Of a DNA stretch of 38,699 nucleotides, positions 1-19,100 are shown one piece after another. Origin of the DNA: a virus. Position 1 is the stretch's first letter, and each line of letters opens with the position of its first letter. The position numbers were made by a program, and so were the translations under genes. The notes below the pieces were generated by a model, which saw only the letters and a program-made list of their open reading frames with translations, was not told where the DNA came from and searched no databases. The DNA lies in IMG/VR virus record IMGVR_UViG_3300035698_002035, positions 1 to 38,699 of that record; one strand, 5' to 3'.

Positions 1-546
1 GCAGAGTTTGCAAACGAAGAAGTTTTCGGCGATCGATGTCTCCAGTTAATGGATGCTGGCGTTTACATTACTATTAATCAAGTTATGGTTCCTGCACAGT
101 TTGACGAGCTGTATGCTCGTCTTGAACGATTTGCTAGTAGAGGAATTAATGTAACGCTAAAGCCGCAGTCGGATGACACTGCTTCTTACATAGTTGGCGG
201 ATATACGCCTGAACAAAAGCAACAGATGCAAACAGGTTTTACTCAAGTATGGGGCGAAAAGCCAGTTGCACAGATAGCATTATACGACAGTAAAGGAACA
301 GAGTACGAAATAGACCAAGCAGAGCGATTTAACGCTTACGGATTTAATAAATTTAAGGGATGGACTTGCAATGCAGGTTACCAGGGGTGTGTTATACGCG
401 AGAACGAAGTTAAGCGCAGCTATAGTTGTCACGACGTTCCGTTGGGTACACTAGACGGCGGATTTGAGCTATTTAAAGCTCCGCAAGAGTGTATTACTAA
501 TAGCTGTGTTAGCAGTGCTGATAGCAAACTGCCAAAGGTTAAATGA
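1..546 (+). CDS. Radical SAM protein, C-terminal part (5' truncated by window)
   Basis: The frame is open from base 1, so the start and the CX3CX2C cluster motif lie outside the window. What remains is the end of a TIM-barrel-like region and a Cys-rich tail. The tail begins FKGWTC and has five cysteines ending in C-X4-C. The same layout (FKGW-x-C, about 20 residues, C, then C-X4-C) ends the rSAM proteins at 8311-9333 and 9311-10198, so I assign this fragment to that family by similarity. Such tails normally bind an auxiliary Fe-S cluster (SPASM/twitch-like). It overlaps the next gene by ATGA, which suggests co-translation with the methyltransferase and a second rSAM protein. Substrate unknown. 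Confidence 0.7.
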   Translation, partial: AEFANEEVFGDRCLQLMDAGVYITINQVMVPAQFDELYARLERFASRGINVTLKPQSDDTASYIVGGYTPEQKQQMQTGFTQVWGEKPVAQIALYDSKGTEYEIDQAERFNAYGFNKFKGWTCNAGYQGCVIRENEVKRSYSCHDVPLGTLDGGFELFKAPQECITNSCVSSADSKLPKVK

Positions 547-1151
547 TGAAAATAGAATTAGAAGATATTATGTTTTGGATGGACGCAATACGTAATAGCG
601 ATGATAGGTTTAGGACTTTAGAAAGTTTTTGGAAAGGCCAACTTCGTAGTAAAGTTTGGTTGGTTGAGCATCTCTGTCGTTACAACGAAGTTATGAGTCC
701 CGTTATTGTAATACACGGCGGATGGAACGGAGTTCTTGCTAGTTTATTATTTAACAGCGAATTAAATCCAAGCAAGATTATCTCAGTAGATATCGATCCA
801 GCTTGTGAGAATATAGCTAGTACTATTAATAAACGGCAAGAAATGAAGGGTAAGTTCAAGTCGGTTACGTGTAATATGATCGATTATACATATAAGAAAA
901 GTCCGTGTATTATAATTAATACCAGTGTTGAGCACATGGCTCACGAGGATTATAACCAGTGGCTAGGCAACACACCAAGTTCGTCGCTTAAAGTAGTACA
1001 ATCTAATAATTACTACGGCTTGGACGAACACGTTAATTGTTCTAGTAGTTTGCGCCAGTTCGAGGAAAGTGCAGGGGTGCAGCCAATTTATAGAGGCCAG
1101 CTAGAAACGCCGCTGTACACGAGATATATGTTAATAGGAAAGAAAAAATGA
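543..1151 (+). CDS. Class I SAM-dependent methyltransferase-like protein
   Basis: The 202-residue product has a Rossmann-type pattern: a hydrophobic strand then HGGWNG (residues 58-63, a Gly-rich SAM-loop equivalent), followed by SVDIDP (81-86), where the acidic residues would hold the SAM ribose. A later strand IIINTSVEHM fits the motif IV position. It sits between two rSAM genes with ATGA overlaps on both sides, so the three are probably translated as a unit. A second ATG directly follows the first; either could be used. The acceptor is unknown, and the fold call rests on motif spacing only. Confidence 0.6.
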   Translation: MMKIELEDIMFWMDAIRNSDDRFRTLESFWKGQLRSKVWLVEHLCRYNEVMSPVIVIHGGWNGVLASLLFNSELNPSKIISVDIDPACENIASTINKRQEMKGKFKSVTCNMIDYTYKKSPCIIINTSVEHMAHEDYNQWLGNTPSSSLKVVQSNNYYGLDEHVNCSSSLRQFEESAGVQPIYRGQLETPLYTRYMLIGKKK

Positions 1152-2008
1152 GCCCGCGATTAAAGTATTCAGAAATAAATATTACAAACGTATGCAACTA
1201 TAGCTGTACGCACTGCCAGAGTTTCAACAATTATGCTTTTAAAGGACACCAACGCTGGGATGACTATAAAGACGAGTACGAGAAATTAAGCAAACAACTT
1301 GACATAGACGTAATACAAATCATCGGCGGCGAACCCTCACTTAATCCTGATTTTAAAAAATGGGTTAAGGGCATCTCTAATTTGTGGCCGACTTCTAAAT
1401 TGCAAATATCTACTAATGGAACAAAACTTGACAAAATAACAAATGAGATATACGATGTATTAGCAAAAAATAACGGAACACTTTGGATAACATGCCACGA
1501 TATAAACTTATATGATAATTTTTTAAACTTTATTAACACGTTTCTTCATGTCATTGTATCAGATACTAAAGACCTTCCGGCTCGCAAGGTATCTAGGATA
1601 TTTGTTGATACGAACGGCGTAGAAGTAATACTCGACTGGACGCAGACATTTAGGTCTAGTGCAATAGATCTAGTTAGTGAGCAACTAACATTAACCTATG
1701 ATAGTGACGCGGACGAAGCACACGAAATATGTGGATTTAAAAGTTGTCATCAAATTAACAAGGGAAAGTTATATAAGTGCCCGCTAGTAAGCGTACTTCC
1801 GGACTTTCTGAGTCAATTTAGTGTCGCGTCATCTGATAAAGAGTTAGCACTGGCATACCAGCCGATGACGCACAGTGACGATGTTCAGAAATTTGTAAAT
1901 AGCTTAGATAAGCCTATACCACAGTGTAAGTTTTGTCCTAGCAATTATAATACAGCACACGATTTTACAGGCACTGACAAAAAAATTAAAGTTAAATTAT
2001 TGCCATGA
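1148..2008 (+). CDS. Radical SAM enzyme with Cys-rich C-terminus
   Basis: The 286-residue product has the rSAM cluster motif C16-X3-C20-X2-C23, the SAM-binding GGEP at 60-63 and the STNGT strand motif near 88-92. C-terminal cysteines at 195, 200, 211, 260 and 263 could hold one auxiliary Fe-S cluster. The start overlaps the methyltransferase stop (ATGA), and an AGGA element lies upstream. It is the last gene of this plus-strand block and converges on a 2OG-oxygenase gene three bases away. The motifs show a SAM-cleaving enzyme, probably SPASM-like; the substrate cannot be inferred. Confidence 0.85.
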   Translation: MSPRLKYSEINITNVCNYSCTHCQSFNNYAFKGHQRWDDYKDEYEKLSKQLDIDVIQIIGGEPSLNPDFKKWVKGISNLWPTSKLQISTNGTKLDKITNEIYDVLAKNNGTLWITCHDINLYDNFLNFINTFLHVIVSDTKDLPARKVSRIFVDTNGVEVILDWTQTFRSSAIDLVSEQLTLTYDSDADEAHEICGFKSCHQINKGKLYKCPLVSVLPDFLSQFSVASSDKELALAYQPMTHSDDVQKFVNSLDKPIPQCKFCPSNYNTAHDFTGTDKKIKVKLLP

Positions 2009-2011
2009 CTG

Positions 2012-2320
2012 TTAATAAAGACTAAATTCAATAGCAATACACATCCGAGGTTCGTTAGGTAAGTGAGCATCTACTGCATGTAATGTAGTATTGTCTATAA
2101 TGACTATATCTCCTTCTTCTACAATGAGTTCAACGGTATCAGTGTCGATGCAATCACTAGGCCAATCTCCAACAGTTCCGTTATGAATAAACACTAAATT
2201 TGATCCGCCTATGGGTGCTTTGGGATAAAAAAGTAATACCATTTTTTTGGCGGTGTTGTGTGGAGCTATGTCGACATGATTTTGAATTTCGCAACCTTGG
2301 TAAGTTAAATTAATCCACAT
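2012..2320 (-). CDS. 2OG-Fe(II) oxygenase, C-terminal part (frameshifted gene)
   Basis: This reading frame holds the catalytic half of a 2OG oxygenase: WIN-x4-G, then H15-V-D17 (the HxD iron motif), distal H81 and R92, the expected 2-oxoglutarate ligand. It starts inside the end of the frame at 2305-2619, one reading frame away. Reading backwards it continues without stop to an A6 run (plus-strand T6 at 2340-2345). One extra A there would join both halves into a 202-residue protein of normal size for small phage 2OG oxygenases. The gene is either broken, mis-sequenced at the homopolymer, or expressed by -1 slippage. Last gene of the 6835-2012 operon. Confidence 0.7.
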   Translation of the reverse strand: MWINLTYQGCEIQNHVDIAPHNTAKKMVLLFYPKAPIGGSNLVFIHNGTVGDWPSDCIDTDTVELIVEEGDIVIIDNTTLHAVDAHLPNEPRMCIAIEFSLY

Positions 2321-2619
2321 GCTGTTAAATTGTAAATTATTTTTTCCGAATACAAGTAAGTATATTTCTTGCCTGCTTCTTGTAATATGTTAATTAACTT
2401 TTCAAATTTTTTATTTTTATTTTTATCACCCCTTAATGTAAAATTAAAATCCGTAGTACAAATTTTGCCGCCTCTGCGTTCGGGGTGATCCACATCTTTA
2501 TTTTCAGGAAGCACAAGAGTAGTCATTATATCATTGTATAACAATGTTGGCAATAATTCACGTATATTATTACTTTTAAGTACAACAACTTTAGATCCAA
2601 AAATCGATAATATTGTCAT
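2305..2619 (-). CDS. 2OG-Fe(II) oxygenase, N-terminal part (frameshifted gene)
   Basis: The 104-residue frame is preceded by a very strong ribosome binding site (AAGGAGG, 9 bases before ATG), so translation clearly starts here. It lacks catalytic residues and ends in an unrelated-looking tail just after an A6 run. Joined by a single -1 shift at that run (after residue 93) it continues into the frame at 2012-2320, which has the HxD...H...R site. I read the two as one 2OG-oxygenase gene with a frameshift. The gene follows speD by 14 bases and shares its operon. Confidence 0.65.
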   Translation of the reverse strand: MTILSIFGSKVVVLKSNNIRELLPTLLYNDIMTTLVLPENKDVDHPERRGGKICTTDFNFTLRGDKNKNKKFEKLINILQEAGKKYTYLYSEKIIYNLTACGLI

Positions 2620-2633
2620 TCTGTTTCGCCTCC

Positions 2634-3011
2634 TTACTTAACTTCGTTTAAACCAAATTCTCGGTCTAGGAACTTCCATTCAAGCTTAACAGTGTTCCAC
2701 TCGTCTAATTCATTAAAGATAAGTTCTTTGTTAAGATGCCCGCAAGTGTATACGTCTAGTTGTACTAGCGACGGGTCAGGCTCGTCCCAGACATGTATAG
2801 CAATGTGGCTGGTTTCAATAATAACGACTCCGGTAACACCCTTGTTACCCGGAACATCTACATATGCTGTTATTGGGCCTGCGCAGACTTTCATGTTAAT
2901 TTTTTCTACCAGCTGTAGCAGCCAGCTGTGGACCCAAGATGCGTCCTTGGGAGGATTAGCTACTTCGGCGCGAATAATTAAGTGTTTGTGTTCTGCAACT
3001 ACTGGATTCAT
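2634..3011 (-). CDS. speD: S-adenosylmethionine decarboxylase (pyruvoyl type)
   Basis: The 125-residue product matches the short bacterial SpeD family. GVVIIETSHIAIH contains the self-cleavage site: Ser68 before His69 would become the pyruvoyl group. His73 and Cys90 (in DVYTCG) match the conserved processing/proton-donor His and Cys. TSH replaces the usual ESH, but the serine is kept. The enzyme makes decarboxylated SAM, the aminopropyl donor for polyamines. No spermidine synthase is seen in the window, so the dcSAM either feeds the host enzyme or another phage step. It follows the amidinotransferase gene in an operon with an aminotransferase and 2OG oxygenases. Confidence 0.9.
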   Translation of the reverse strand: MNPVVAEHKHLIIRAEVANPPKDASWVHSWLLQLVEKINMKVCAGPITAYVDVPGNKGVTGVVIIETSHIAIHVWDEPDPSLVQLDVYTCGHLNKELIFNELDEWNTVKLEWKFLDREFGLNEVK

Positions 3012-3039
3012 GTAATTTACCGTGTTAAATTGTGTACGA

Positions 3040-4116
3040 TTAGATAATAGATCTATGTTGTCCTTTGCGTTTAAGGTCTAAAGTAGAACAATGTATGCCG
3101 CCTTCCCAAAAAAGCATGTGACGCTGCTCGCATACGTGGCACTCTATGCCAAAAGTTTTTAGATATTTAAATAGTTCAGGAAGTGCTCTGCCAAATACTA
3201 TGTTATTTCGGTCGATAATTAATACATTAAGATCAAAGCATACGTCTTGATTATACCCGCGCCGCATGTCTAAGTATTTATTGATCCACGCTAAGTTATA
3301 TCTTCCGCCAGCACTGATATAGTCCTCCTTGAATTGCGCAGTGTTTGCTTTAGGTACGTATTTTTTGACATCAATTAGTCGTAAGTGCTGAAGCGCTAAC
3401 GGAACCCAATTTATGCCTGCGTGAATAACTGTTTCGTCGTCGATCATAACAAAGCCGTGATCTATGTGTCCGTAATTCTCAGCATATCCGTTGACGTTAT
3501 CTATGAACTTAAATTCTGAAAGATTCCTTTTCAGCCATTTAAGACCCATTGCATTACCAGGTCCTTCTGAGTTTATAATAATGCTATCGCCCACCGGAAA
3601 CATAGTAGCTGTGTGGAATAGCACTCGGTCTTTTAGCTTAGTATTGTATATAGAACCTTCGTCGTTCCATACATACCATAGATCGTTTGGCGTAACAGGA
3701 ACTAACGGCGGAGGAGGCTGGCTAATCCAGTTGTATCCCTTGTCGAACATTTCTGAAAATATGTTATAATAGCTTAGACTATCAAAGTAACGATCAGTTA
3801 AGCTAGTGTAAGTCTGAATAATAGTATTTCCGCGGACGGCATACTGGTCTCTAGGTACAGTAGGGCCCATAGGAAACTCGACATCAAACCCGCTCATAGC
3901 TATATGGTCAGAGTATTTTAATACTTGCGGTCTATTAACTTTAATGTTACCTTGTTCTAAAAAGTCTGCTAGGTTGTCAAAGTCTCTTTTAGTTTCATCT
4001 AATATTTGATTGAACGAGGACAGTGATTTATCTGGAAATAAATGATCCAAGTCTCCTGGTACGTATGAATCAGCTACGATGATTTGTTCTAAGGGGTCGT
4101 ATTCTGTGTAAACCAT
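3040..4116 (-). CDS. Glycine/inosamine amidinotransferase-like enzyme
   Basis: The 358-residue length is close to family members. The N-terminus EYDPLEQIIVAD matches the AGAT/StrB opening EYDPL-x2-V-I-V. GHIDHGF (H217, D219) and GGIHCSTLD with Cys343 match the catalytic His, Asp and Cys of L-arginine amidinotransferases. These move an amidino group from arginine through a Cys intermediate to an amine such as glycine or an inosamine. The start overlaps the aminotransferase gene by 28 bases. That neighbour could supply the amine acceptor, although the acceptor is unknown. The catalytic triad looks intact. Confidence 0.88.
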   Translation of the reverse strand: MVYTEYDPLEQIIVADSYVPGDLDHLFPDKSLSSFNQILDETKRDFDNLADFLEQGNIKVNRPQVLKYSDHIAMSGFDVEFPMGPTVPRDQYAVRGNTIIQTYTSLTDRYFDSLSYYNIFSEMFDKGYNWISQPPPPLVPVTPNDLWYVWNDEGSIYNTKLKDRVLFHTATMFPVGDSIIINSEGPGNAMGLKWLKRNLSEFKFIDNVNGYAENYGHIDHGFVMIDDETVIHAGINWVPLALQHLRLIDVKKYVPKANTAQFKEDYISAGGRYNLAWINKYLDMRRGYNQDVCFDLNVLIIDRNNIVFGRALPELFKYLKTFGIECHVCEQRHMLFWEGGIHCSTLDLKRKGQHRSII

Positions 4117-5219
4117 GTTAGATTCTCTTTTAATACGTGAAAGTATTCATCAGTGGCATTCACTGGAATTATATAAAACTGTTTTTCTTTATCGTTTGCA
4201 ATCTTAAAATTAAGTCCGAAGTTGCTCTTAATATTATACCCGCAGTCTTTAAATATAGTTTTGGCAGTGCTTACTAATCGGCTATGATCTGCCAATAGGT
4301 TGTCTCGTTCTAGAATGTCTAAATACTTTGTAGCACTAGCTATGCCCGCTAGGCTAAAGCTATAGGTGAAACCGTGTTCCCAATTAAAATTGCGCGGAAG
4401 GGTTTCTTCAATTTTTTTATTATACAGTGCCATGCTTAATGGAAAATATCCAGCAGTTATTGCCTTGCCCATAGTTGCAATATCAGGTTCGATGTTTAAA
4501 TGTTTCCATCCTAGGTAATTTCCAGTTTTACCACCGCCCATGAATATATCGTCTATAATTATTAATACATCATAATCTAACCGTATCTGATTTAATCTTG
4601 CCCAGAATTCCGACGACGGCGGAATCATGTCTTCACCGTACGCGCAAGTTTCTATCATTATAGCAGCAACTGGATCCCAGTCAATGCAGTCGTCTGCGAA
4701 ATCTCTAGGTATTCGCGTTACTGTTGGGTTAGGATCTAGTGTATAGAATGGCTTATCCATAAAATTATCATGGCCTATACTCATAGTAAGTGACGTACTG
4801 CCGTGATAGCTTTTTTCAAAGCCTACTATAGTTTTTTTATGATGGTTTCCTTTTTGAAAGTGATATGCACTAGCTAGCTTAACTGCTCCTTCGTTAGCGT
4901 CAGAGCCGCTTAGCGAAAAGAACGGCGACATTCCGGACATAGCATGAATTCTATCTGCAAAATCAAAACTAATGTGATTTAATCTAACTGTGTCAGTGTG
5001 CGGCATCATTCTTTCGCCTAGTTCAGGCCTATTGCTCTTAACAACATCAGCTACGAAATCCACGATTTCTTCATTTTCGTAGCCTAATACAAATGCGCTA
5101 TAGTGTAATAACGGATCAACAATCTTCATTCCGTCGCGTATTTCGCCGTATTGCCATCGAGGTAACGGGCGTTGAATGTCTTGTCGCTGTTCACTTGGAA
5201 TTAACCCTTTATACGTCAT
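4089..5219 (-). CDS. Class III PLP-dependent aminotransferase
   Basis: I chose the ATG at 5219, which has AAGGA 7-8 bases upstream, over an in-frame TTG at 5276. The 376-residue product shows SGSDANEGAVKLA (104-116, phosphate-binding region of class III enzymes), the IIDDIFMGGGKTG strand (usually DEVxTGFGRTG) with the PLP-binding Asp at about 223-224, and Lys252 in MGKAITAGYFP as the Schiff-base lysine. The family includes omega-aminotransferases and glutamate-1-semialdehyde aminomutase; specificity is not readable. A 53-base gap separates it from the preceding 2OG gene. The next gene is the amidinotransferase. Confidence 0.88.
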   Translation of the reverse strand: MTYKGLIPSEQRQDIQRPLPRWQYGEIRDGMKIVDPLLHYSAFVLGYENEEIVDFVADVVKSNRPELGERMMPHTDTVRLNHISFDFADRIHAMSGMSPFFSLSGSDANEGAVKLASAYHFQKGNHHKKTIVGFEKSYHGSTSLTMSIGHDNFMDKPFYTLDPNPTVTRIPRDFADDCIDWDPVAAIMIETCAYGEDMIPPSSEFWARLNQIRLDYDVLIIIDDIFMGGGKTGNYLGWKHLNIEPDIATMGKAITAGYFPLSMALYNKKIEETLPRNFNWEHGFTYSFSLAGIASATKYLDILERDNLLADHSRLVSTAKTIFKDCGYNIKSNFGLNFKIANDKEKQFYIIPVNATDEYFHVLKENLTWFTQNTTP

Positions 5220-5272
5220 GCTGTTTTCCTTAATATTAGTATATGCAAGTATATATGATAAACACACATCTG

Positions 5273-5908
5273 TCAATCACGTTGCTGATAATCTATATAG
5301 TCCTTAAATAGTTCGTTGGCTCTTTCAAAGGTTAGAGCGTTTCCGTCTTCTAGCAGAGTAAAACACAAAGACCAACGATGTTCGCTAGGCGATGGGTTCC
5401 ATGTAGAATGCAGTTGGCTAATGTTAAGTAGGCTAGGGCGATGTATAACAGCTTCGTACACTAAATCTACATCTTCCCATTCTGCAAGTAATACGTGAGA
5501 AATGTCTATATCAGGAACGATGCCTGCTTCGAAGAATTTTTCATTAATTCCTTCTTCGCCAAAGAAGTGTTTTATCAGCTTACTTTCGTCCCTAATTTTA
5601 TACCACTTAGTAGTGCTATCTAGCGACCCCCATGTAAAGTTTAATTTGCATATATCGTGTGTGCCCGGAGTCCAGCCGGTATCCGCGTGTAACGGAACTC
5701 TTCCTCCGTTTGGCTTTGTATAGAATGCTTCTAGTACATTAGAAATAGTTAGCCCAAAGCTTTCAATCCATGCTTTAAATGTTTCATCAATTAAGTCTTT
5801 GCTTACTAAAATAGCGTAATTTTCCTCTGGGTGCTCGAATCTTTCCGGCTTGGGATAATCGAAAGGAAGAGTTAGGTAGCGATGATATGGATTTAAGTTT
5901 GCAGTCAT
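5273..5908 (-). CDS. 2OG-Fe(II) oxygenase-like protein
   Basis: The ATG at 5908 overlaps the previous stop (ATGA); the longer frame would need a TTG start. The 211-residue product has H74-A-D76 in a VPLHADTG context, a likely distal His at 156 or 167, and R178 followed by an HRWSLCFTL strand. This is the double-stranded beta-helix order HxD...H...R. Oxidation with Fe(II), O2 and 2-oxoglutarate is expected. It belongs to the operon with the CPFAK protein, the aminotransferase, amidinotransferase and SpeD, so a small-molecule or peptide substrate made by that operon is possible. Confidence 0.72.
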   Translation of the reverse strand: MTANLNPYHRYLTLPFDYPKPERFEHPEENYAILVSKDLIDETFKAWIESFGLTISNVLEAFYTKPNGGRVPLHADTGWTPGTHDICKLNFTWGSLDSTTKWYKIRDESKLIKHFFGEEGINEKFFEAGIVPDIDISHVLLAEWEDVDLVYEAVIHRPSLLNISQLHSTWNPSPSEHRWSLCFTLLEDGNALTFERANELFKDYIDYQQRD

Positions 5909-6342
5909 AGTGTTAAAATTTCCTCTAAAAATTCCTTGCTCCAAAAAGAGTAATAAGGTGTAGTGGCTAATTTATCTCGAGCAATTTGCAATGATGCTCT
6001 GCTCTGACACATTAGTAAATTATATTTTCCGTTGTTGGTTTGAATTCCGTTAATTTCCGAGTAGGAGTTTTTGCTGTCGGGTAAAAAAACTAAGTAGGGA
6101 TATGTGATGTTGTTCTCTTTAGCAATTTCAACTAGCTCTGCGTTTGTGTATTTGTCGTCTAGTACAAAAATTACTAATTCGAACTCGTGCTGCGGAGGAT
6201 CAATTGTATTCTCTAAAACTTCTATTATTTCGTATTTTGCGCTTTTAGCAAACGGACACACTGGAAACTTGCCTAGTTCAGCATGCCTTACTGAAAGCTT
6301 CTCAACCCATGCTGTTATGTGTTTATTGATGTCACTCTGCAT
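5905..6342 (-). CDS. Unknown protein with CPFAK motif (DUF1415-like)
   Basis: The 145-residue product has Trp12 and a PVCPFAKSA motif (C29-P30-F31-A32-K33), then an alternating alpha/beta pattern (VIFVLDDKYT, YPYLVFLPD) ending in an LEEIL helix. The Trp plus CPFA layout recalls DUF1415-type proteins of unknown function; a thioredoxin-like fold is another possibility, but there is no second Cys at the usual spacing. It overlaps the upstream 2OG gene by 11 bases and the downstream one by ATGA, placing it firmly in the operon. No function is assigned. Confidence 0.6.
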   Translation of the reverse strand: MQSDINKHITAWVEKLSVRHAELGKFPVCPFAKSAKYEIIEVLENTIDPPQHEFELVIFVLDDKYTNAELVEIAKENNITYPYLVFLPDSKNSYSEINGIQTNNGKYNLLMCQSRASLQIARDKLATTPYYSFWSKEFLEEILTL

Positions 6343-6835
6343 AAGTGCTAACTTGTAAAATTAATCTCGGAACATGGCCGATATTTGCTGCACCGTGCAA
6401 TGCATTAGGGTCTTCGTATGTCCATATGTCCCCGGCTCGGTAATCAGTTATTACTTTGTCTTCGTACATAAAAACGTGTCCCGGCTGCCAGTCTTGCAGC
6501 GGTACCCAGTAGCGCTGGCTTTCGGGTTGGTATAAAGTATGAGGATCAGTGTGCATTGGCATGAAGTTGCCAGGCATCATCTTAGTAATCCACCAGTGGT
6601 AACTTCCGGAAACAAAAGGCGGGACAATCTTAAATGTAACATTAGAGCGGTCGAACATATAAAAGTACGTATCGGAACTTTTGTACCCAGCTGCTATGGC
6701 TATTTTATATTCTTCTTTCATTTGGCTACTGTCTGGCTTAGCTCCTTCTGCCGGCCGTTTAGTTCCAGCATTAGATAGTAATTCAGCAATCCACGCTGAT
6801 TCAATCCAGTTACTACAGTTTCCTTTGTAAATCAT
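6332..6835 (-). CDS. 2OG-Fe(II) oxygenase, Asp/Asn-hydroxylase-like
   Basis: The 167-residue product has H95-T-D97 in FMPMHTDPHT, distal H147 in NALHGAANIG and R157 in PRLILQVS, with the GHVFMYEDKV strand and Gly-Asp turn (AGDIW) between them as in aspartyl/asparaginyl hydroxylase-type oxygenases. It is the first gene of the seven-gene minus operon down to 2012. AGGGG lies 5 bases before the ATG. The promoter must lie in the divergent gap 6836-6925. Confidence 0.8.
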   Translation of the reverse strand: MIYKGNCSNWIESAWIAELLSNAGTKRPAEGAKPDSSQMKEEYKIAIAAGYKSSDTYFYMFDRSNVTFKIVPPFVSGSYHWWITKMMPGNFMPMHTDPHTLYQPESQRYWVPLQDWQPGHVFMYEDKVITDYRAGDIWTYEDPNALHGAANIGHVPRLILQVSTYAE

Positions 6836-6925
6836 TATATCCCCTAATTACGTCAGTAATACAGTACAACATAAGTACATGACGTAAATATATATATATG
6901 ATATATACCATGCAGGGAGTCATTT
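6836..6925. promoter_or_regulatory. Divergent promoter region with palindromic operator candidate
   Basis: This 90-base gap separates the minus 2OG operon from the plus N-twitch rSAM operon. TTACGTCA (6848-6855) and TGACGTAA (6880-6887) form a perfect 8-base inverted repeat with 24 bases between. CGTAAATA at 6883-6890 resembles a phage late -10 element and lies 35 bases before the plus start. An AT dinucleotide tract follows. AGGGAG at 6914-6919 is the ribosome site of the plus gene. The operator reading is inference. Confidence 0.4.
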
Positions 6926-11462: not shown

Positions 11463-12123
11463 TTGCCCACTCCCTCTCAATGCACCAAAAGCATTCCTTA
11501 CAAGTAGGAACCTTTTGATGCGGTATGTATGTTGTGTAATCTAATCCGCTAAATTCTCCTTCGCAGCTGCGAGTGAGGTCCAGTAGGTCTCTGATATCGT
11601 TATGGTAGTATTGTTTTATAATAGCATCTTTAGTAGTATGTGTAAACGGATGACAAACGTCAATGCCCATGTGCTTCATATGTAATGGCAATGCGCCCTC
11701 TTTTCTTTCAGCAAGAGCTCCAGGGATATCTATTGGCGGATTTTTATTAACGCCGTTAAACCACGCATCTAGCTTATATTGGTGAACAACGAACTCATTG
11801 TGTGCTCTAAGTATAATACGATTGCCGGGTTTTAGCTTTCCGTATTCGTCTAATATTAACGGCGACACTGGCTCTTCTAGTTCGGGCGGAATAAAACCTT
11901 GTATGTGGGTTATCCTGCTAGGAAATCTTTTTCGTAGCCATTCTACTACTTCTATTGCTACATAACTTTGCCACGGTCTAGTTTTCCACATACGAACTTG
12001 CGTAGTTAGGTATATGTTAGCATTGGTCTGACTGCATATTAGATAAGCGAGTAATGCGCTATCGGCGCCTCCACTAACGCTGATTCCGATTCGTTTCCAG
12101 GTTTGATCTATTTCTATGTTCAT
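11446..12123 (-). CDS. QueC-like PP-loop ATPase
   Basis: The 225-residue length equals typical QueC. SGGADS at 17-22 is the PP-loop that adenylates a carboxylate or amide. HPFTHTTKDAII followed by LTRSCE resembles the QueC stretch before its first Zn ligand. Cysteines 187, 208, 211 and 214 (C-X20-C-X2-C-X2-C, followed by IERE) match the QueC zinc site. QueC converts 7-carboxy-7-deazaguanine to preQ0. FolE, QueE, QueD-like and DpdA are encoded 18-24 kb away, which would complete the pathway. However this gene sits in an rSAM/2OG operon, so another substrate is possible. Coupled by ATGA to the gene before it. Confidence 0.65.
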   Translation of the reverse strand: MNIEIDQTWKRIGISVSGGADSALLAYLICSQTNANIYLTTQVRMWKTRPWQSYVAIEVVEWLRKRFPSRITHIQGFIPPELEEPVSPLILDEYGKLKPGNRIILRAHNEFVVHQYKLDAWFNGVNKNPPIDIPGALAERKEGALPLHMKHMGIDVCHPFTHTTKDAIIKQYYHNDIRDLLDLTRSCEGEFSGLDYTTYIPHQKVPTCKECFWCIEREWAIEQNR

Positions 12124-13310
12124 AACTCGTTATATAGCCAGTTGTTGCTGTGCCAGCTAGGCTTAGTTAACTGCCTAATGCCTATTGGTTTATGACTGTT
12201 AGTGTTAGTAAAGCCAGTAGCGGCCTTGCCGGTGGTATGTATAGTTGCATAAGGAAACCGCGTATTGATTTCGTTAAGGTAAAAGTTTTCTCTAGATAAC
12301 CGGTGTTCTAAGCTATGCAGCGAAGCAGTGCCTTCGTAACAAAAAATATTAGATAAGTTAATTAGCGTAGAGTCAATGTCTTCTATATAGTCTATTAGTG
12401 TGTCCTCGGTTAGCAAGTTGCAATTAACAAACTCGATGTTGTATCCGCTAATTATATTTTTCCAGTATGCTAAGCTAGCGTCATTGTAATCGTACAGTAT
12501 TATCTTAGTGTCCGCAGTGGCATACTTCTTCCACCAATCGCTGCTTGCAGGAGTTACAATTTGCTTATAGCAGGCTTGCAGATTATAAAATTGGTCAGTA
12601 TGTGTTGTATGAATAAATTTATCCTTGCAATACATATACTTGTGATATATCTGATTTATGTTATTAACGAATAATCTTTGATTTTCAGGATAGTAATGAA
12701 TTTTATTATTTCTTACACTGTTAGGAAATGCGTTAATACTATATCCTGCATTTAATCCGGTTACTACTAAATTCCATCCATGTAGTTTATGGGCATATTG
12801 CTTAGTGTCGGTGCCCGGCGATACACAAGACGGAGTATAATCATCATGTATGTTGTCTACAGAGCGTATCGGCTCGTTGAACTCTGACGTACCTCCTAAT
12901 GCCTGTTGCCCAACGTGCGGAGCACCTAATGTTTTATACTTTTCAATGTTAATTAAATAGCATTGTTGATGCAATTCATAATATCCTTCTTTGCGGTCTA
13001 ATATATGGCCGTAAATATAGTAGTTGGTGTTTAGTAACTCGTTAATGCTATCAAAGAACTTGTCTCCATTAACGAATTCAGTTCCGGTAGTAAATACAAG
13101 AGCATGCTTGTACCCGCGTTCAACGGCGTAATGTAACATTGCGTCTTCGTTTTCAGATTGCACTAACGACGTTTGTTTGGCGAATAAATTCGAGACAGTG
13201 TAATCGCTGATATTCTTTATTATCTCTTTAGTCCACGAAGACTCGTATGTGTGCGTATTGTCAAGAAAACAGTATAGTATGCTGTCGCTTTGTTCAAAGA
13301 AAATATTCAT
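12120..13310 (-). CDS. Uncharacterised two-part protein, possibly glycosyltransferase/methyltransferase-like
   Basis: I do not recognise this 396-residue protein. The first half has an ALVFTTGTEF strand followed by a GHILDRK...CYLIN stretch that reads like a nucleotide-sugar transferase core. The second half has ILYDYNDASLAYWKNI, similar to the strand-helix element after motif I in some Rossmann methyltransferase-like proteins. Both readings are weak. It is placed between a 2OG oxygenase and the QueC-like protein with ATGA-type overlaps at both ends, so it probably works in the same pathway. Confidence 0.5.
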   Translation of the reverse strand: MNIFFEQSDSILYCFLDNTHTYESSWTKEIIKNISDYTVSNLFAKQTSLVQSENEDAMLHYAVERGYKHALVFTTGTEFVNGDKFFDSINELLNTNYYIYGHILDRKEGYYELHQQCYLINIEKYKTLGAPHVGQQALGGTSEFNEPIRSVDNIHDDYTPSCVSPGTDTKQYAHKLHGWNLVVTGLNAGYSINAFPNSVRNNKIHYYPENQRLFVNNINQIYHKYMYCKDKFIHTTHTDQFYNLQACYKQIVTPASSDWWKKYATADTKIILYDYNDASLAYWKNIISGYNIEFVNCNLLTEDTLIDYIEDIDSTLINLSNIFCYEGTASLHSLEHRLSRENFYLNEINTRFPYATIHTTGKAATGFTNTNSHKPIGIRQLTKPSWHSNNWLYNEL

Positions 13311-13957
13311 TTATTCTTATTGTAACTCCTAACAACTAATTCGGCGAATTCTTTTTTTTGGTTTCCTATTATGCAGTGTGCTATCATATGCATGCGAGGA
13401 AGACTGCTGTTGTTAACAACCCGATGCGTATCAGTTATGTTGACAATAAATGCTTTGCCTGCGCTCCATGGAACAGTTCCGTATGTGTCTAGGTGCATTT
13501 TGCAATCTACAGGATGGGTAATTGCTACGTTAATAGGAATTATATGATCCATCATGTTGAATTCTGTATTCTTCATGCCATTGGGCGAGTCGTTATGTGC
13601 TGCTACCCACCCTCCGGGGGCAACTTCCATAAAACGCAAGCGAGCAAACTTTTCAGTAGGAAAGGTCTTCCAAAAATTAGTTATGACTGGTACTTTATTT
13701 GTAAGCGATGTCCAGTCATACGAAATCTTATCCTCGGTGTCTGCATAGCAACTCCAGTGGCCTGTTTGCATTTCGCTTATTCCATGCACGCAGCAGCTAC
13801 GCCATCCTTTGTGATCTCCGCTTTCTCGATGCGCTACAAGGTGGTCAGTAACAGCAGCAGCTTCGGCACTCCAGCCTAGCGCATCGAATTTAATATCTAG
13901 TTCGATCCACCCTAACGGCTTTCTTAAAATTGCAGTTGCTTGTGCTATTATGTCCAT
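13307..13957 (-). CDS. 2OG-Fe(II) oxygenase, Asp/Asn beta-hydroxylase-like
   Basis: The 216-residue product has H121-N-D123 (AAHNDSPNG), distal H178 in DTHRVVNNS and R188 in LPRMHMI, the usual aspartyl/asparaginyl hydroxylase layout (HRVxN then R). FARLRFMEVAPGGWV precedes the iron motif as in that family. First gene of the minus block 13957-9311. GGTAAATA lies only five bases before the start codon and no clear ribosome binding site is present. Confidence 0.82.
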   Translation of the reverse strand: MDIIAQATAILRKPLGWIELDIKFDALGWSAEAAAVTDHLVAHRESGDHKGWRSCCVHGISEMQTGHWSCYADTEDKISYDWTSLTNKVPVITNFWKTFPTEKFARLRFMEVAPGGWVAAHNDSPNGMKNTEFNMMDHIIPINVAITHPVDCKMHLDTYGTVPWSAGKAFIVNITDTHRVVNNSSLPRMHMIAHCIIGNQKKEFAELVVRSYNKNK

Positions 13958-13996
13958 ACATGTATTTACCCATCAAAAGCACAGATAAATACACTT
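13958..13996. promoter_or_regulatory. Short divergent gap with late-motif-like elements at both starts
   Basis: The 39-base gap has GATAAATA (plus strand, 13984-13991) five bases before the ATG at 13997. It also has GGTAAATA (minus strand, 13963-13970) five bases before the ATG at 13957. Both resemble the T4 late element TATAAATA. If active they would give leaderless mRNAs, because initiation occurs a few bases after the motif. No Shine-Dalgarno sequence fits either start. Confidence 0.3.
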
Positions 13997-14671
13997 ATGA
14001 TTACACGTACATCCTACTCTACTTCAATACAGTCTATTGATCAAGCACTGCTAGCAATGCCTTCTAGGTCGCCGGGAAAGGAAACACTTAATCAGCCAAC
14101 TGGTAACTTTTTTTACGACTCGTGGGAACTTAAGCCCGAGTACAAGGATTCTGCCTGGGGAAACTTATTGAGTAGCATTAACGAAGCGCACGGCGAAGCG
14201 CGAATAATTACACTTCCTAGCAAGTCGAATTATGTAAGTCATTGCGATATTGATGATAGGTTTCATTTAAACCTTAGTGGTACATTTTCTTATCTCATTA
14301 ACTTAAGTGATGATAAAATGCACTTATGTGAAAAAGACGGCATATGGTATAGTATGAATGCAAGTAAGTTACACAGCGCAGCTAACTTCGGTAATAGATT
14401 TAGACATCAATTAGTAGTTAGAAAATTACTAAACCACGGCAATATCAAAAATCCGGTTAGTGTTAAGATTACATCCAATATAGCCGACCTCGAAGAAATA
14501 CGATTTATATTCGATCATAGAATAAGTGCATTGCTTAACCATGCAAACAAAAAAGGTATGATTGATAATTTTAAATTAATTAATAATTTTCCCGAATTCA
14601 CTTGCGATATATCATTTATAAGTACACTTCAAGATAACGCAGGAGCAGAATTAAAATTAACGGTAACATGA
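13997..14671 (+). CDS. 2OG-Fe(II) oxygenase-like protein
   Basis: The ATG at 13997 is preferred to an upstream in-frame ATG at 13940 that would overlap the divergent gene. The 224-residue product has H82-C-D84, a FSYLINLSD strand, distal H126 in KLHSAANFG and R134/R136, the HxD...H...R order with an Asn after the distal His as in Asp-hydroxylase-like proteins. The last 80 residues after the beta-helix carry no motif I know. Coupled by ATGA to another 2OG gene. Confidence 0.7.
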   Translation: MITRTSYSTSIQSIDQALLAMPSRSPGKETLNQPTGNFFYDSWELKPEYKDSAWGNLLSSINEAHGEARIITLPSKSNYVSHCDIDDRFHLNLSGTFSYLINLSDDKMHLCEKDGIWYSMNASKLHSAANFGNRFRHQLVVRKLLNHGNIKNPVSVKITSNIADLEEIRFIFDHRISALLNHANKKGMIDNFKLINNFPEFTCDISFISTLQDNAGAELKLTVT

Positions 14672-15216
14672 AGCAATACATAGGTACGCTATCACTTGCA
14701 GCGTGTAACAACGTTATAGCAGAATGCAAGCAGCACGTAGTTGAGCCGTATTACGGCAACATGGACTTAGATCCAGACGAAAGCTATTACGAAGCACATA
14801 ACGAATTAAAGCAGTTATCGGCAACTGCCGGATATACAAGCGGCGACAGTGTTGAATTCAGACACTATTATCCCGGAAAACACTTTAGTGAGGAAATTTT
14901 AGATAAGTTTGAAGAGATAGTTAATGCACGTAGTCTGCTAAGTTTTGTTAGTGAAATTCGACCCGGCAAGTGCGCGCCGTGGCACTGGGACATTAACCCT
15001 TGGTTAGACACATACCCTGCCGGCAGCATTGCTCGATACGTATGTTTTATAGATACGCCTAAGCACGGACAGGCATTTATGATCGAGGATGAATGTTTTT
15101 ATCTAGAAGCACAGGGCAACATTTATCAGTACCCTAGTTTAAGCAGCTGGCATGCTGGATTCAATGCCGGACTTGAAACTAAGTACCTTTTCACTTTTAC
15201 TGGCATTAAGAACTAG
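14668..15216 (+). CDS. 2OG-Fe(II) oxygenase-like protein
   Basis: The 182-residue product has H106-W-D108 (APWHWDIN) and a distal H162 (SSWHAGFN). The arginine that binds 2-oxoglutarate in most relatives appears to be replaced by K172 (ETKYLFTF). A Lys is used by some branches of this superfamily, so activity is not excluded. Start overlaps the previous 2OG gene (ATGA), and the 3' end overlaps the convergent gene by 4 bases. Substrate unknown. Confidence 0.68.
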   Translation: MKQYIGTLSLAACNNVIAECKQHVVEPYYGNMDLDPDESYYEAHNELKQLSATAGYTSGDSVEFRHYYPGKHFSEEILDKFEEIVNARSLLSFVSEIRPGKCAPWHWDINPWLDTYPAGSIARYVCFIDTPKHGQAFMIEDECFYLEAQGNIYQYPSLSSWHAGFNAGLETKYLFTFTGIKN

Positions 15217-16022
15217 TAGTTGCTTAAGTCAGCTATTCCTAGCGTTTTTCTAAACGCTGGTGTAAACGTACAGTCTATGCGCAATCCGTATTCAACTTCG
15301 TCTGACATTTCCCCGCCGTGCCAGTCTTCGTCGTTCCAGAATGCAGAACGTGAATTTATATAATGTTTATCTTGCGCTTCTGGATCCCAGATATAGAATC
15401 CTCGTTTTGTCCGATAACGTATGTGTATAAACTCGTTGCGATGCTTACTGTAACCTTGTTTGTTGCCGTTATTGCCATCCAAGTCTCTATGCTCAAATGC
15501 ACGCCCGTTGTGGTCGCAGTGAAAGAATATAACGCGTCCAATACGATCTATGATATTTTTTTCTACAAGTGATTCAACCCAACTAACTACTCCTGGAAAA
15601 TATTGCTGTTCTTCGGTAGGCTTCCGTTGAGAATTGCGTTCGCTCCACTCGCCTTCTTCCCACAAAAAGTAGTAGATATACGGATCGCTTGCTCCGAGTA
15701 CTGATTTTAAATATCGAGTAAATATGTTGCGCTGTTTGTAGTCTTTAAAGTCCGTTGGAAATATATCATTGCCTTGCACTTTAATAGGATGGCCCTCGGG
15801 CAATGATTGGTACTCACTAAATGCTTTATATATAGGTTTCCAGTTTACTATATAACTCATGTCTTCCATGTTAAATCCTGGCGTCATCCATGTTCCTTCT
15901 TTAGCATACTCACGGGCAAGTGCAAAGCCTTTGCATATCTGAGGATGCAAGTTTTCGAAACTAGCTATGTCTAGGTATGGATCTAAGTTAATATACGGCT
16001 GATTGTTAATTCCTTTAATCAT
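15213..16022 (-). CDS. 2OG-Fe(II) oxygenase-like protein
   Basis: I chose ATG 16022, overlapping the upstream stop by 8 bases; an in-frame ATG at 16055 would add 11 residues. The 269-residue product has H178-R-D180 (FEHRDLDG), a basic RYRTKRGFYIWD strand, distal H235 in EDWHGG and R248 in YGLRID. It is the largest 2OG protein here, with a roughly 170-residue N-terminal region before the iron motif that carries no motif I recognise. Last gene of the minus block from 19100. Confidence 0.72.
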   Translation of the reverse strand: MIKGINNQPYINLDPYLDIASFENLHPQICKGFALAREYAKEGTWMTPGFNMEDMSYIVNWKPIYKAFSEYQSLPEGHPIKVQGNDIFPTDFKDYKQRNIFTRYLKSVLGASDPYIYYFLWEEGEWSERNSQRKPTEEQQYFPGVVSWVESLVEKNIIDRIGRVIFFHCDHNGRAFEHRDLDGNNGNKQGYSKHRNEFIHIRYRTKRGFYIWDPEAQDKHYINSRSAFWNDEDWHGGEMSDEVEYGLRIDCTFTPAFRKTLGIADLSNY

Positions 16023-16701
16023 TATATATTGCCTTTGCTTTGTTGATAAAATCATCAGGATAGTTTGTTCTGAAACTTTCTAAACACAGCATCTGCAATA
16101 TGTTTAGTGGCTCGGGGTCGTTCCAACTTATGCCCATCTTTTCTACTTGTGTTTTCATGATATCCTGCCGCGTGCTGTATATGTGACTTGCATGATCTGC
16201 AATTCTAATAGGACCTTCACTAGAGTTATAGCAAAAAAAATGATTAAAACTCTTTAATTTATTGTTAACTATAAAGTAGCTACTAGGGTGCAGGCTATAT
16301 TTGTATATGCCTAATTGTTTATATGCAGATAATATTTCTAACATCTGTTCTTGCCAGTCTGGCAATGTGCTAGTGTAGTTGTCCACATTGCAATTAGCGC
16401 GATTCCAGAAATCCTTGCCGTCGATACTAAAATATAACTTTTGATTAGTGCGATCAATGTCTATGAGTTTCGGAACATGCTCGGGATAGTGCTTAGACAT
16501 TAATTGCGAGTAGTGAACTTCGCGATTCCACTTTTCTGTCATCAGTTTGGGATCAACAACTTCATTTTGTCCTCCGTGGTATCCTGCATCGTTGAAGAAC
16601 CACTGACAAAAGACTGTTTCGCTGTTATTAACTAAACTCGTGTAAATTAAGTTGTTACGGCACGTGCCTATTCCAGGTACATTATTCCAGTAATATTTCA
16701 T
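16015..16701 (-). CDS. Degenerate kinase-like (APH-fold) protein
   Basis: ATG 16701 overlaps the previous stop (ATGA). The 228-residue product has a layout like aminoglycoside-phosphotransferase or small protein-kinase folds: a W-x2-E helix element, PKLIDID, a short IDGKDFW hinge, and a catalytic-loop-like YSLHPSSYFIVNNKLKSFNHF. In true kinases that loop reads HxD...N and ends in D-F. Here the catalytic Asp is absent and the metal-binding Asp is Asn. It would be a pseudokinase or a distant relative. Two 2OG genes flank it. Confidence 0.45.
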   Translation of the reverse strand: MKYYWNNVPGIGTCRNNLIYTSLVNNSETVFCQWFFNDAGYHGGQNEVVDPKLMTEKWNREVHYSQLMSKHYPEHVPKLIDIDRTNQKLYFSIDGKDFWNRANCNVDNYTSTLPDWQEQMLEILSAYKQLGIYKYSLHPSSYFIVNNKLKSFNHFFCYNSSEGPIRIADHASHIYSTRQDIMKTQVEKMGISWNDPEPLNILQMLCLESFRTNYPDDFINKAKAIYND

Positions 16702-17345
16702 AACCACACTGCGTCGTTTTTGTATTTTTCTAAACTACGAGCTAGCAATGATTCGTGTTTGTCGTCATCTATAATTCCTGCCATAGTTAATATAATTTTT
16801 GGTCGTTGTGTCTTTATAGCACCGTGGTAACATGCTGTATTATTAAATGTAAAACACGGACTAACTAGCTTGGGGAAAATTTTATCGCCATTATCTTCTT
16901 TACTAATATAAAATGTGTTATATTCTGGATTAGTTAGGTATATTGTATATCTTCTAGGCTCGGCAGGAGTTGCAGGGTCAGCAGTGTCTTGGTGGTACGG
17001 TATTTCGCCTAACTGGTATAACATACCGCTTATTGTTAGCTGTTTAAATGGCAACTGTTTAATACCGTTTGCTATACTAGGGAACTCGTGCTCGAATCCC
17101 GGATGAAATAATATGCCATTGTTCGTTCCTTCTGTGCGGCGATTATCCCACTTATCAGAATCGTATTGCCTCCAGTCAACTGGTTCTTCGCATGCAGACA
17201 CCATAGCCCAGACATGTCTATTTTGCTCGTACTCCCAATAAGTAGTGCTTAGTAATTTATGATCTTCAAACCACGTAAGGATCTTTCCCTCATCCGGCCA
17301 TTCTATGTCAATATCAATTAGCAAGTGAGCTAATTCTGTTTTCAT
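16698..17345 (-). CDS. 2OG-Fe(II) oxygenase-like protein
   Basis: I start this gene at the ATG at 17345; the frame stays open upstream to 17444, but that part overlaps the previous gene by more than 100 bases. The 215-residue product has H118-Q-D120 (IPYHQDT), a RRYTIYLTNP strand with Asn, distal H174 (CYHGA) and R181 (QRPKIILTM). This matches small phage 2OG oxygenases that hydroxylate unknown targets. It overlaps the previous 2OG gene by 32 bases and the next gene by ATGA. Confidence 0.72.
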   Translation of the reverse strand: MKTELAHLLIDIDIEWPDEGKILTWFEDHKLLSTTYWEYEQNRHVWAMVSACEEPVDWRQYDSDKWDNRRTEGTNNGILFHPGFEHEFPSIANGIKQLPFKQLTISGMLYQLGEIPYHQDTADPATPAEPRRYTIYLTNPEYNTFYISKEDNGDKIFPKLVSPCFTFNNTACYHGAIKTQRPKIILTMAGIIDDDKHESLLARSLEKYKNDAVWL

Positions 17346-17919
17346 ATATTTTATTAATCCTAAATATAATAGCAACACGGGACCTATTGCTGGTGTTAAA
17401 GGTGTAGTGCGGAATAGTAGTGTCGAGCAAATATAATGAACCATTTGCTTCTAATTCTAAATGTTGCTCGGCTCCGTCCTTGACAAACACAATAGCAGGT
17501 CCTTCAGTGTATATAGGAATCCACACTGTTAGTTCGTCTTCTTGATCGGAGTGCATGCTTACTTTTCCGCCCGGCAACTGCAAACTTATAGCCCAGCGAT
17601 TGCCATACGGTATAATTTCCTGTAGCTTCTCCACTATGCCAAACGCTAGCTGGGTATTTCTATACGCTACTGTTTCGTATATACTTATATTCCACGGCGG
17701 ACACGGAATAGTTAAATCTTTTAAGTTACTTTGAATTGCCCATCCTTGAGTTAACAAGTTAGCGGAGTCTTTATAGGCCGCGTCTTTCCATTGTTCGACA
17801 ATAGTATGTGCATACAGGTCCCACGCCCATCTTAAATGATCAAACTCAGTTGATACAATCTCGTAGTACTGCCTAAGGGCAGCTATGTCCGTAGTGAAAT
17901 TAAGTTTTTGCACACTCAT
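17314..17919 (-). CDS. 2OG-Fe(II) oxygenase-like protein
   Basis: The 201-residue product has H123-S-D125 (VSMHSDQED), an ELTVWIPIY strand, LYLLDTTIPH with distal H171, then R181 in SRVAIIFRI. All catalytic positions are present. The start overlaps the stop of the rSAM gene (ATGA), so it is coupled to that enzyme. Two 2OG oxygenases in a row after a single rSAM enzyme suggests sequential oxidation steps on one substrate, which is inference. Confidence 0.75.
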   Translation of the reverse strand: MSVQKLNFTTDIAALRQYYEIVSTEFDHLRWAWDLYAHTIVEQWKDAAYKDSANLLTQGWAIQSNLKDLTIPCPPWNISIYETVAYRNTQLAFGIVEKLQEIIPYGNRWAISLQLPGGKVSMHSDQEDELTVWIPIYTEGPAIVFVKDGAEQHLELEANGSLYLLDTTIPHYTFNTSNRSRVAIIFRINKIYENRISSLAN

Positions 17920-19100
17920 AAATTTAATAAATCTAGCGGATCTTTTGAAGGATTTAAACTAAATTTATAACGCTCGGGCGGTGCATCGGGCAATTTTAAA
18001 TTTTGATTCTTCCAAACATCTCTGCGTATAATTTGATGTAAAAAGTTAGTAATTCCGTCTGGCACAAAATTACACCAGGGCCCCGAACGTAGTTCTTCCA
18101 TATCAATGTCAGTTTCGTCACACCATTGTATAATTCTAATATCGTTGCCTTCTACCTTAGCCATGACATGGTAAATATTGTTGTCTGCTTCTACTATTCG
18201 TTCAAAGGATTTATTGTTGCTTTTGCACCAGGACTCAATTGCTTTGTATACATCACTTACAAATATACGCAGTTGTCCTGGATTACGTCCGATGTCGGCG
18301 CCGTAGCGAATTCTAAAATTCTTAGCGCGCCAAAAGTTAGAACATACCTCTGACATAATATCATGTATTTCGTCTAGCCCTAACATAGTGTACGAAATAT
18401 AGCTAATGGGAATATTTTCAGAGTGCATATTTTCAATAGCAGATATTTGCTTGCGTCTTACCACTTTATGATTTATGTAGTTGCTATGATTAAGACCTAT
18501 GTTGACCCCAGCCAATCCTGCTGCTTTAACTTCCTGTACGAACTTTTGATTTCCGAATCGAATGCCGTTAGTCATAACTGTTACGTCAAGACCTAGGTGT
18601 AGTTCGCTTATTTCGATAACTAGCTGAGAAAAATCCGGTCTAAGAGTTGCCTCGGCTCCACACAAAACTATGCGGCTAACATCGCCTAAGGGCAATTTTT
18701 TAATATCGTCAAGTAAACTAGAGCGAGGGCTGTCTGCAATTTGATTGTCTGGCAAGTGATAGCAGTGCGGGCATTCTAAATTACAACGATCACTAGCTTC
18801 TACTAGCACGCCGCCGTTAAAGTTGTACAGCGGGTTGTCCTGAGTGTAGTGTAATCCTTGATAAAATTCATAATCGCTTTCGATCATGTTATGACTAATT
18901 CCATGTACTGCACAGTGCTTAGCCATGAACACTCTTCCGTCTTTGTGATACCGCCACGCAGGTATATGATAATGACATTGGTGACACAAACTAACCGTAG
19001 GTAGTAGCTCAGTACCGTCCTGGCTGTGTATTGCTGTGTGTAACGCATCTATTGCACGCTGAGTAAATTGCTTTAGTCCAACGAAAGTCACCGTATCCAT
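17916..19100 (-). CDS. Radical SAM protein, COG1964/Tes-like with N-terminal Zn-ribbon-like motif
   Basis: The 394-residue product begins with C39-X2-C42, VPA-like HIPAW, a DGRVFMAKHC (C63) AVHG element, then an aromatic FY. This is the N-terminal signature of COG1964-type rSAM proteins, a group including methyltransferases of dihydropterin and archaeal lipid cross-linking Tes. The rSAM motif is C106-X3-C110-X2-C113; GGEP is replaced by CGAEATLRP, and TNGIRFG follows. It has a ribosome site AAAGG and a late-type CATAAATA 50 bases upstream. It leads an operon with 2OG genes. A desaturase lies across the divergent promoter. Confidence 0.8.
   Translation of the reverse strand: MDTVTFVGLKQFTQRAIDALHTAIHSQDGTELLPTVSLCHQCHYHIPAWRYHKDGRVFMAKHCAVHGISHNMIESDYEFYQGLHYTQDNPLYNFNGGVLVEASDRCNLECPHCYHLPDNQIADSPRSSLLDDIKKLPLGDVSRIVLCGAEATLRPDFSQLVIEISELHLGLDVTVMTNGIRFGNQKFVQEVKAAGLAGVNIGLNHSNYINHKVVRRKQISAIENMHSENIPISYISYTMLGLDEIHDIMSEVCSNFWRAKNFRIRYGADIGRNPGQLRIFVSDVYKAIESWCKSNNKSFERIVEADNNIYHVMAKVEGNDIRIIQWCDETDIDMEELRSGPWCNFVPDGITNFLHQIIRRDVWKNQNLKLPDAPPERYKFSLNPSKDPLDLLNL

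Follow-up and report, generated by a model that had tools for sequence, protein, structure and literature searches.

A linked core of radical-SAM genes in an enzyme-rich island of an uncultured marine phage, with a counterpart in Bdellovibrionota

Marine phages of the T4 superfamily are known to accumulate genes for radical S-adenosylmethionine (rSAM) enzymes: the host-recognition clusters of pelagimyophages mix tail fibres, glycosyltransferases and rSAM cassettes (PMC7029224), and a T4-like marine genome from TARA carries 12 rSAM genes (PMC5332604). Here we analyse an island of this kind in the IMG/VR record IMGVR_UViG_3300035698_002035, 38,699 bases from an uncultured marine phage (hereafter the window), in which an earlier note had pointed to many rSAM and 2-oxoglutarate (2OG) oxygenase genes within positions 1-19,100 and had proposed a multi-step modification or biosynthetic system. 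The island is built around a linked core, consisting of the genes F11, F5, g1, g2, g12 and g13 facing g14, g15 and g16 (F-numbers denote families of relatives; the g genes are listed in Table 1), which is repeated across hundreds of viral contigs and is present in smaller form in some Bdellovibrionota chromosomes. A literature search on rSAM/2OG phage islands, N-twitch enzymes, jumbo phages and Bdellovibrio rSAM proteins, with subscription papers and preprints outside its coverage, returned as relevant the two papers cited above and one survey of rSAM prevalence in viromes, and no earlier report of the linked core, of its PA5oct-like occurrence or of its Bdellovibrionota counterpart. Thus, rSAM-rich phage islands are already known, and the linked core and its bacterial counterpart appear to be new.

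Linkage of the core and the phage that carries it

A scan of viral contigs seeded with g15 gave 169 relatives, of which the best 80 were kept (75-85% identity). The same gene order recurs among them, with g16, g15 and g14 convergent on g13, g12, g2 and g1; F11, a putative glycosyltransferase gene, overlaps g1, and the rSAM gene F5 lies close by. In the window, cassette B (g3-g11) sits between g2 and g12. A scan seeded with g1 gave at least 580 relatives. Counts were made in the 28 loci that spanned 15 kb or more: F5, an N-twitch rSAM gene and g2 were each present in 27, g13 in 25 and F11 in 23. From g21 as the seed, the pseudokinase gene g22 was found in 58/58 loci and an N-twitch rSAM gene in 54/58. 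Many of the viral contigs are related to one another, so these counts do not represent independent events and the bacterial data described below provide the better test of linkage.

The dense packing described in the earlier note was also borne out. The 25 reading frames within positions 1-19,100 leave a total of 135 non-coding bases, and the rSAM genes of long relatives are clustered beyond chance: all 13 Radical_SAM matches of a 357-kb relative fall at 167.6-189.4 kb (∼22 kb), nine of the ten in a 364-kb relative lie inside 25 kb, three further long records are similar, and the clustering was matched by 0 of 5000 uniform random placements per record. Two very large T4-superfamily relatives, L067 (357,559 bases) and L349 (363,943 bases), carry a full rSAM island.

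The surroundings of the core vary between islands, with SpeD/aminotransferase/amidinotransferase, desaturase/sulfotransferase, 2OG-enzyme and halogenase genes all appearing in this role. Both cassette B (SpeD, amidinotransferase, aminotransferase, 2OG and DUF6875 proteins) and cassette C (g23-g28) belong to part of the islands only, and because such cassettes come and go independently they need not share the pathway of the core. A flavoprotein gene of the tryptophan-halogenase family (Pfam 5e-93; L025, 14995-16554) lies in this island in 13 relatives. The multi-step system of the earlier note therefore stands for the core, which recurs in viral contigs and bacterial chromosomes, and need not extend to SpeD, the amidinotransferase, aminotransferase, desaturase, sulfotransferase and most 2OG genes; independent distribution in relatives, which that note had named as the outcome that would undo its proposal, is what we found for cassettes B and C and not for the core. 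The same pattern bears on the view that the island is a hyperplastic region beside tail-fibre genes, gathering independent auxiliary genes without any shared pathway. Plastic regions of this kind are known in T4-like phages (PMC7029224, PMC3037559), and the turnover of cassettes B and C and of most 2OG genes remains compatible with it, but for the core it is refuted by linkage in 27/28 loci from an independent seed, by conserved order and by the recurrence of the same core in bacterial chromosomes. As an account of the island, we therefore regard it as quite improbable.

Gene order and marker proteins place the phage as PA5oct-like, that is, a relative of the Arenbergviridae within the T4 superfamily; the window is a fragment without a capsid gene. 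Its DNA polymerase and MoxR ATPase are each 48% identical to their nearest relatives in PA5oct-group phages (Sinorhizobium phage Phosso is likewise among the nearest for the polymerase), the order DNA polymerase - QueE - exonuclease/RNaseH - MoxR is common to the window and PA5oct, and the gp23 capsid protein of one relative is 71-72% identical to the PA5oct group. The phage is not a typical marine cyanophage or pelagiphage. Searches with g1, g12, g15 and g25 found no close isolate among 50,697 phage records.

Homologues of QueE and FolE, from the 7-deazaguanine pathway, lie at 29652-31208 in the window, and one might suppose that the island enzymes act alongside them to hypermodify phage DNA or tRNA. 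Radical-SAM and pyridoxal-phosphate enzymes do take part in known thymidine hypermodification, and the QueC-like g16 lies in the island itself with QueE and FolE nearby. However, QueE is syntenic in PA5oct, which has no rSAM island in the stretch beyond its DNA polymerase-MoxR genes, and is therefore a backbone gene outside the island; g16 is far from true QueC, and no hydroxymethylase or 5-hydroxymethyldeoxyuridine kinase was seen in the window. We consider this explanation very unlikely.

The core in Bdellovibrionota

The g15 alignment alone detected no cellular relative in a first genome scan; when a mixed N-twitch alignment was run against species genomes, 60 loci were obtained. Within the Bdellovibrionota, g1 is present in 16 of 241 genomes, and in the 10 loci inspected its neighbours include an N-twitch rSAM gene (9/10), F5 (9/10), F11 (7/10) and g2 (6/10). 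The minimal bacterial locus consists of two F11-type genes, g12, F5 and g1 amid ordinary chromosomal genes, and another locus adjoins polysaccharide genes. One bacterial region holds ∼13 rSAM genes in ∼27 kb. Of 68 open reading frames from the Bdellovibrionota loci, 21 match Radical_SAM, and the most frequent remaining domains include those of glycosyltransferase-2 and polysaccharide synthesis.

Bacterial matches of this sort could be misbinned phage sequences. Such is the case for L100 and L105, contigs in GTDB metagenome-assembled genomes labelled Gammaproteobacteria and Chloroflexi, which carry gp23 on the same contig and are T4-like phages. It is not the case for the tested Bdellovibrionota contigs: gp23 was absent from the tested genomes, whose contigs reach 1.6 Mb, a result that depends on this one marker and on contig size. 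In a tree of g1, viral contigs and Bdellovibrionota are split with full support, and the rows for L100 (phage) and L104 (probably phage) are nested in the bacterial clade. Thus, g1 has probably passed between the viral and bacterial worlds more than once.

That the core is kept both by phages and by Bdellovibrionota chromosomes implies that its chemistry is under selection. A bolder possibility, which we hold to be doubtful, is that a GT-A enzyme, three to five rSAM enzymes and a methyltransferase constitute the core of an undescribed biosynthetic class common to PA5oct-like marine phages and Bdellovibrionota, which would make a radical-edited envelope glycoconjugate for both of these bacterial killers and would have been transferred between them at least once.

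Enzymes, cassettes and a possible product

All seven rSAM proteins counted in the earlier note for positions 1-19,100 were confirmed: six (g3, g12, g13, g14, g15 and g25) contain CxxxCxxC and exceed the PF04055 cut-off, and g1, whose catalytic half lies off the contig, is recognised through full-length relatives. Both g12 and g15 belong to the N-twitch family (NF033640, N_Twi_rSAM). A homologue of g15 at 7433-8740 of contig G263 (locus L082) is interrupted by a single internal TAG.

The count of nine 2OG-like proteins (g4 with g5, g9, g11, g18, g19, g20, g21, g23 and g24) likewise held, on the basis of an HxD...H metal triad retained across relatives in all nine families. Only g18 passes a Pfam cut-off, with g4, g11, g19 and g24 below threshold and g9, g20, g21 and g23 without a Pfam match; profile comparison joins g18, g19, g24 and g11. 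The halves g5 and g4 count as one gene divided by a frameshift near an A-run (2012-2619), a gene that is unbroken in relatives (family F40, 11 loci); the frameshift may be genuine or may reflect faulty assembly. The partner of g21, g22, has a predicted protein-kinase fold and is missing the kinase catalytic motifs, hence our designation of it as a pseudokinase. With so many 2OG enzymes, one could imagine that they deplete 2OG and thereby redirect nitrogen regulation in the host, an idea already put forward for cyanophages (PMC3037559). This scenario leaves the rSAM core unexplained, and the 2OG families are diverse and tied to specific partners, as in the invariable g21-g22 pairing, so that we find it scarcely credible.

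Table 1. Genes of the island and its right-hand boundary (positions in the window)
Gene	Position	Strand	Assignment	Evidence
g1	1..546	+	core rSAM, C-terminal part, 5' end off contig	81% identity over shared part to full-length rSAM with CNYxCSYC
g2	543..1151	+	core, putative SAM-methyltransferase-like	conserved GGW.G...S.D.D.....NTSCEH motifs
g3	1148..2008	+	cassette B rSAM	PF04055 2e-13
g4	2012..2320	-	2OG oxygenase, C-terminal half (frameshift split)	PF13640/PF13759 weak; undivided 199-aa form in relatives
g5	2305..2619	-	N-terminal half of 2OG gene split with g4	
g6	2634..3011	-	cassette B pyruvoyl decarboxylase, SpeD-type	PF02675 5e-14
g7	3040..4116	-	cassette B amidinotransferase, HsvA/StrB1/AGAT fold	profile against PDB: HsvA 2e-42, inosamine-phosphate amidinotransferase 4e-35
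g8	4089..5276	-	cassette B class III aminotransferase	PF00202 8e-43
g9	5273..5944	-	cassette B, 2OG-like	HxD...H conserved
g10	5905..6342	-	cassette B, DUF6875-like	PF21780 7e-5, slightly under cut-off
g11	6332..6835	-	2OG-like, Asp/Asn hydroxylase type	weak PF05118; HxD...H; g20 profile match 6e-25
g12	6926..8314	+	core N-twitch rSAM	NF033640 393 bits (cut-off 170)
g13	8311..9333	+	core rSAM, Cys cluster at C-terminus (alignment)	PF04055 1e-9
g14	9311..10270	-	core rSAM	PF04055 1e-12
g15	10191..11480	-	core N-twitch rSAM, highly conserved	NF033640 319 bits (cut-off 170)
g16	11446..12123	-	QueC-like PP-loop ATPase	SGGADS and CxxCFWC invariant; PHROG QueC-like 1e-4
g17	12120..13310	-		no match to families or PDB
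g18	13307..13957	-	2OG enzyme, Asp/Asn hydroxylase type	PF05118 2e-8, passes cut-off
g19	13940..14671	+	2OG-like	HxD...H; profile match with g18/g24/g11
g20	14668..15216	+	2OG-like	HxD...H; g11 profile match 6e-25
g21	15213..16055	-	2OG-like, high conservation	EHRD ... DWHGG invariant
g22	16015..16707	-	pseudokinase fold (predicted), partner of g21	AlphaFold pLDDT 92.9; Foldseek kinases 4e-6; HMM 7e-5
g23	16698..17444	-	cassette C, 2OG-like	HQD...H
g24	17314..17919	-	cassette C, 2OG-like, Asp/Asn hydroxylase type	PF05118 5e-4; g18 profile match 1e-8
g25	17916..19100	-	cassette C rSAM, HMPTM-type N-terminal zinc ribbon	PF04055 6e-15; PF23545 1e-11
g26	19171..19788	+	partner of g27, GNAT-like by eye	kept in relatives and one bacterial contig; no family match
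g27	19761..20555	+	cassette C, fatty-acid desaturase family	PF00487 2e-20
g28	20555..21157	+	sulfotransferase-like, weak	PF03567 0.016; PHROG 0.003
g29	21149..22462	-	tail-fibre protein, Mtd_N domain, boundary of island	PF18454 6e-9

Among the remaining proteins, g2 has no Pfam or PDB profile match and is putatively assigned by its conserved motif, and g17 had no PDB match in the profile search. The desaturase g27 and the weakly matched g28, which the earlier note had placed within the first 19,100 positions, lie past that point. To the left, the window truncates the island, which continues past the contig start; on the right, the island ends at the tail-fibre gene g29, so that this variable region lies next to a tail fibre as in host-recognition clusters. 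In relatives that extend that far, g30/g31 adjoin the island. The element CATAAATA occurs on the minus strand at 19150-19157 and 22500-22507, upstream of g25 and g29, and is a possible phage promoter, although the motif overall is not above chance; a scan for T4 late promoters did no better than chance and gave no early/late expression call.

Cassette B raises the possibility of a small-molecule pathway whose diffusible product (guanidino-polyamine, nucleoside or aminoglycoside-like) would change the host or its competitors. Over most of its length, the profile of g7 matches HsvA, streptomycin-type inosamine-phosphate amidinotransferase, SxtG and AGAT, and its C-terminal GGIHC fits the Gly-Gly-x-His-Cys of amidinotransferases. 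By eye, g6 retains TSH...H...C, comprising the processing Ser and the catalytic His and Cys of SpeD (residues per PMC10407285). Its substrate need not be AdoMet, as phage relatives of SpeD can be neofunctionalised ornithine or arginine decarboxylases (PMC9992855, PMC10407285); no speE was recognised in the window. That these two genes form one cassette with a class III aminotransferase gene favours such a pathway, as do the tryptophan-halogenase-family gene in relatives and the presence of cytosylglucuronate decarboxylase, a sugar-acting rSAM enzyme, among the weak PDB matches. The cassette is nevertheless missing from most core-bearing islands, and we saw neither an exporter nor a carrier protein, making a small-molecule product unlikely in our estimation.

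Alternatively, the rSAM, 2OG and methyltransferase enzymes may alter side chains of phage structural proteins, in a proteusin-like manner on a virion protein and without any glycan. A precursor gene for a ribosomally synthesized and post-translationally modified peptide (RiPP) was found neither in the gaps nor as a conserved small reading frame in the core, in agreement with the earlier note, and the 135 non-coding bases in 19.1 kb could not accommodate one. An 84-aa family beside g3 (F43, 10 relatives) was tried as a precursor and rejected, being conserved along its whole length and not precursor-like. Modification of a resident structural protein would fit the lack of space for a separate precursor gene, and the adjoining fibre protein g29 carries Asp/Asn-rich GDVTGN repeats. 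SPASM/twitch rSAM and Asp/Asn-hydroxylase families mostly act on polypeptides, and the pseudokinase could serve as a binding scaffold. Counting against this alternative, the glycosyltransferase F11 is part of the core, NDP-sugar enzymes recur, Bdellovibrionota have the core without tail fibres, and no PqqD-like recognition domain was matched. On balance it seems rather unlikely.

The explanation that we favour, still tentatively and with somewhat less than even confidence, is a multi-step tailoring pathway in which the island enzymes make or edit a surface glycoconjugate or fibre decoration. F11 is GT-A-like: its DxD is invariant, and its confident predicted model weakly matches polypeptide GalNAc-transferases, WrtF, RmlT and SunS in Foldseek (E 1e-4 to 1e-3, best 1.4e-4). 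In the isolate Vibrio phage K566 (L175, 6729-16190), four N-twitch rSAM genes are interleaved with glycosyltransferase family 8 and other glycosyltransferase-like genes near a structural-looking protein. Taken with the linkage of the core, its place beside the tail fibre, its bacterial counterpart and the pelagimyophage clusters (PMC7029224), these findings lead us to infer that the core enzymes act on one substrate, editing and glycosylating it, with the product displayed on fibres or envelope. According to this proposal, the fixed core would work on a shared substrate, the rSAM enzymes carrying out radical chemistry on unactivated carbon atoms, the methyltransferase methylating, the 2OG oxygenases hydroxylating and the glycosyltransferases adding or lengthening sugars. 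The SpeD, aminotransferase and HsvA-type amidinotransferase cassette may supply a guanidino or polyamine group, and this and other swappable cassettes (desaturase and sulfotransferase-like here, halogenase and NDP-sugar enzymes in relatives) would diversify the final product between phages. As the likeliest product we see a glycoconjugate at the surface, or a fibre protein bearing sugars, on the virion or infected cell; it would affect host recognition or the exclusion of competitors.

Several points weigh against this explanation. A common substrate, its glycan or peptide nature and its role are presumed, and the best-known targets of SPASM/twitch rSAM enzymes are peptides, with several of these enzymes acting on small molecules. 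The fold scores of F11 are modest (TM ∼0.4), its gene falls outside the window, which ends before reaching it, and many islands have no NDP-sugar genes. Two g21-seeded loci nearly lack core rSAM genes, suggesting that parts of the island may act separately, and adjacency to tail fibres may be a mere effect of a recombination hotspot. These phages hold 9 to 15 rSAM genes, most of them in about 20-40 kb, despite the cost and oxygen sensitivity of such catalysts. If the product does decorate fibres or envelopes, it would represent a new route by which phages alter host recognition and a source of new enzymes. The core is compact (five to eight genes), so that direct testing is feasible, and a related block is available in a cultured Vibrio phage.

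Comparison with known systems

In proteusin-type RiPP maturation, the same mix of rSAM, 2OG and methyltransferase enzymes acts on one peptide; the island differs in lacking a precursor peptide, and its proteins gave no Pfam match to a PqqD-like recognition element, a protease or an exporter. Its two N-twitch proteins fall well within NF033640, a library entry without assigned function, but here they are paralogues of unlike conservation set inside a larger cassette. Compared with HsvA, StrB1 and AGAT, g7 is phage-encoded and part of a cassette with SpeD and an aminotransferase. The block of Vibrio phage K566 resembles the island in combining N-twitch rSAM enzymes and glycosyltransferases in a large phage, yet identities are only 21-25% and K566 has no g1. 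The closest likeness in setting is to the phages of PMC7029224 and PMC5332604, which are also marine members of the T4 superfamily with many rSAM genes, the cassettes of PMC7029224 similarly adjoining tail fibres and glycosyltransferases. What distinguishes the present locus from them is its PA5oct-like lineage, a defined linked core in convergent order, the 2OG and pseudokinase partners, and a counterpart in Bdellovibrionota.

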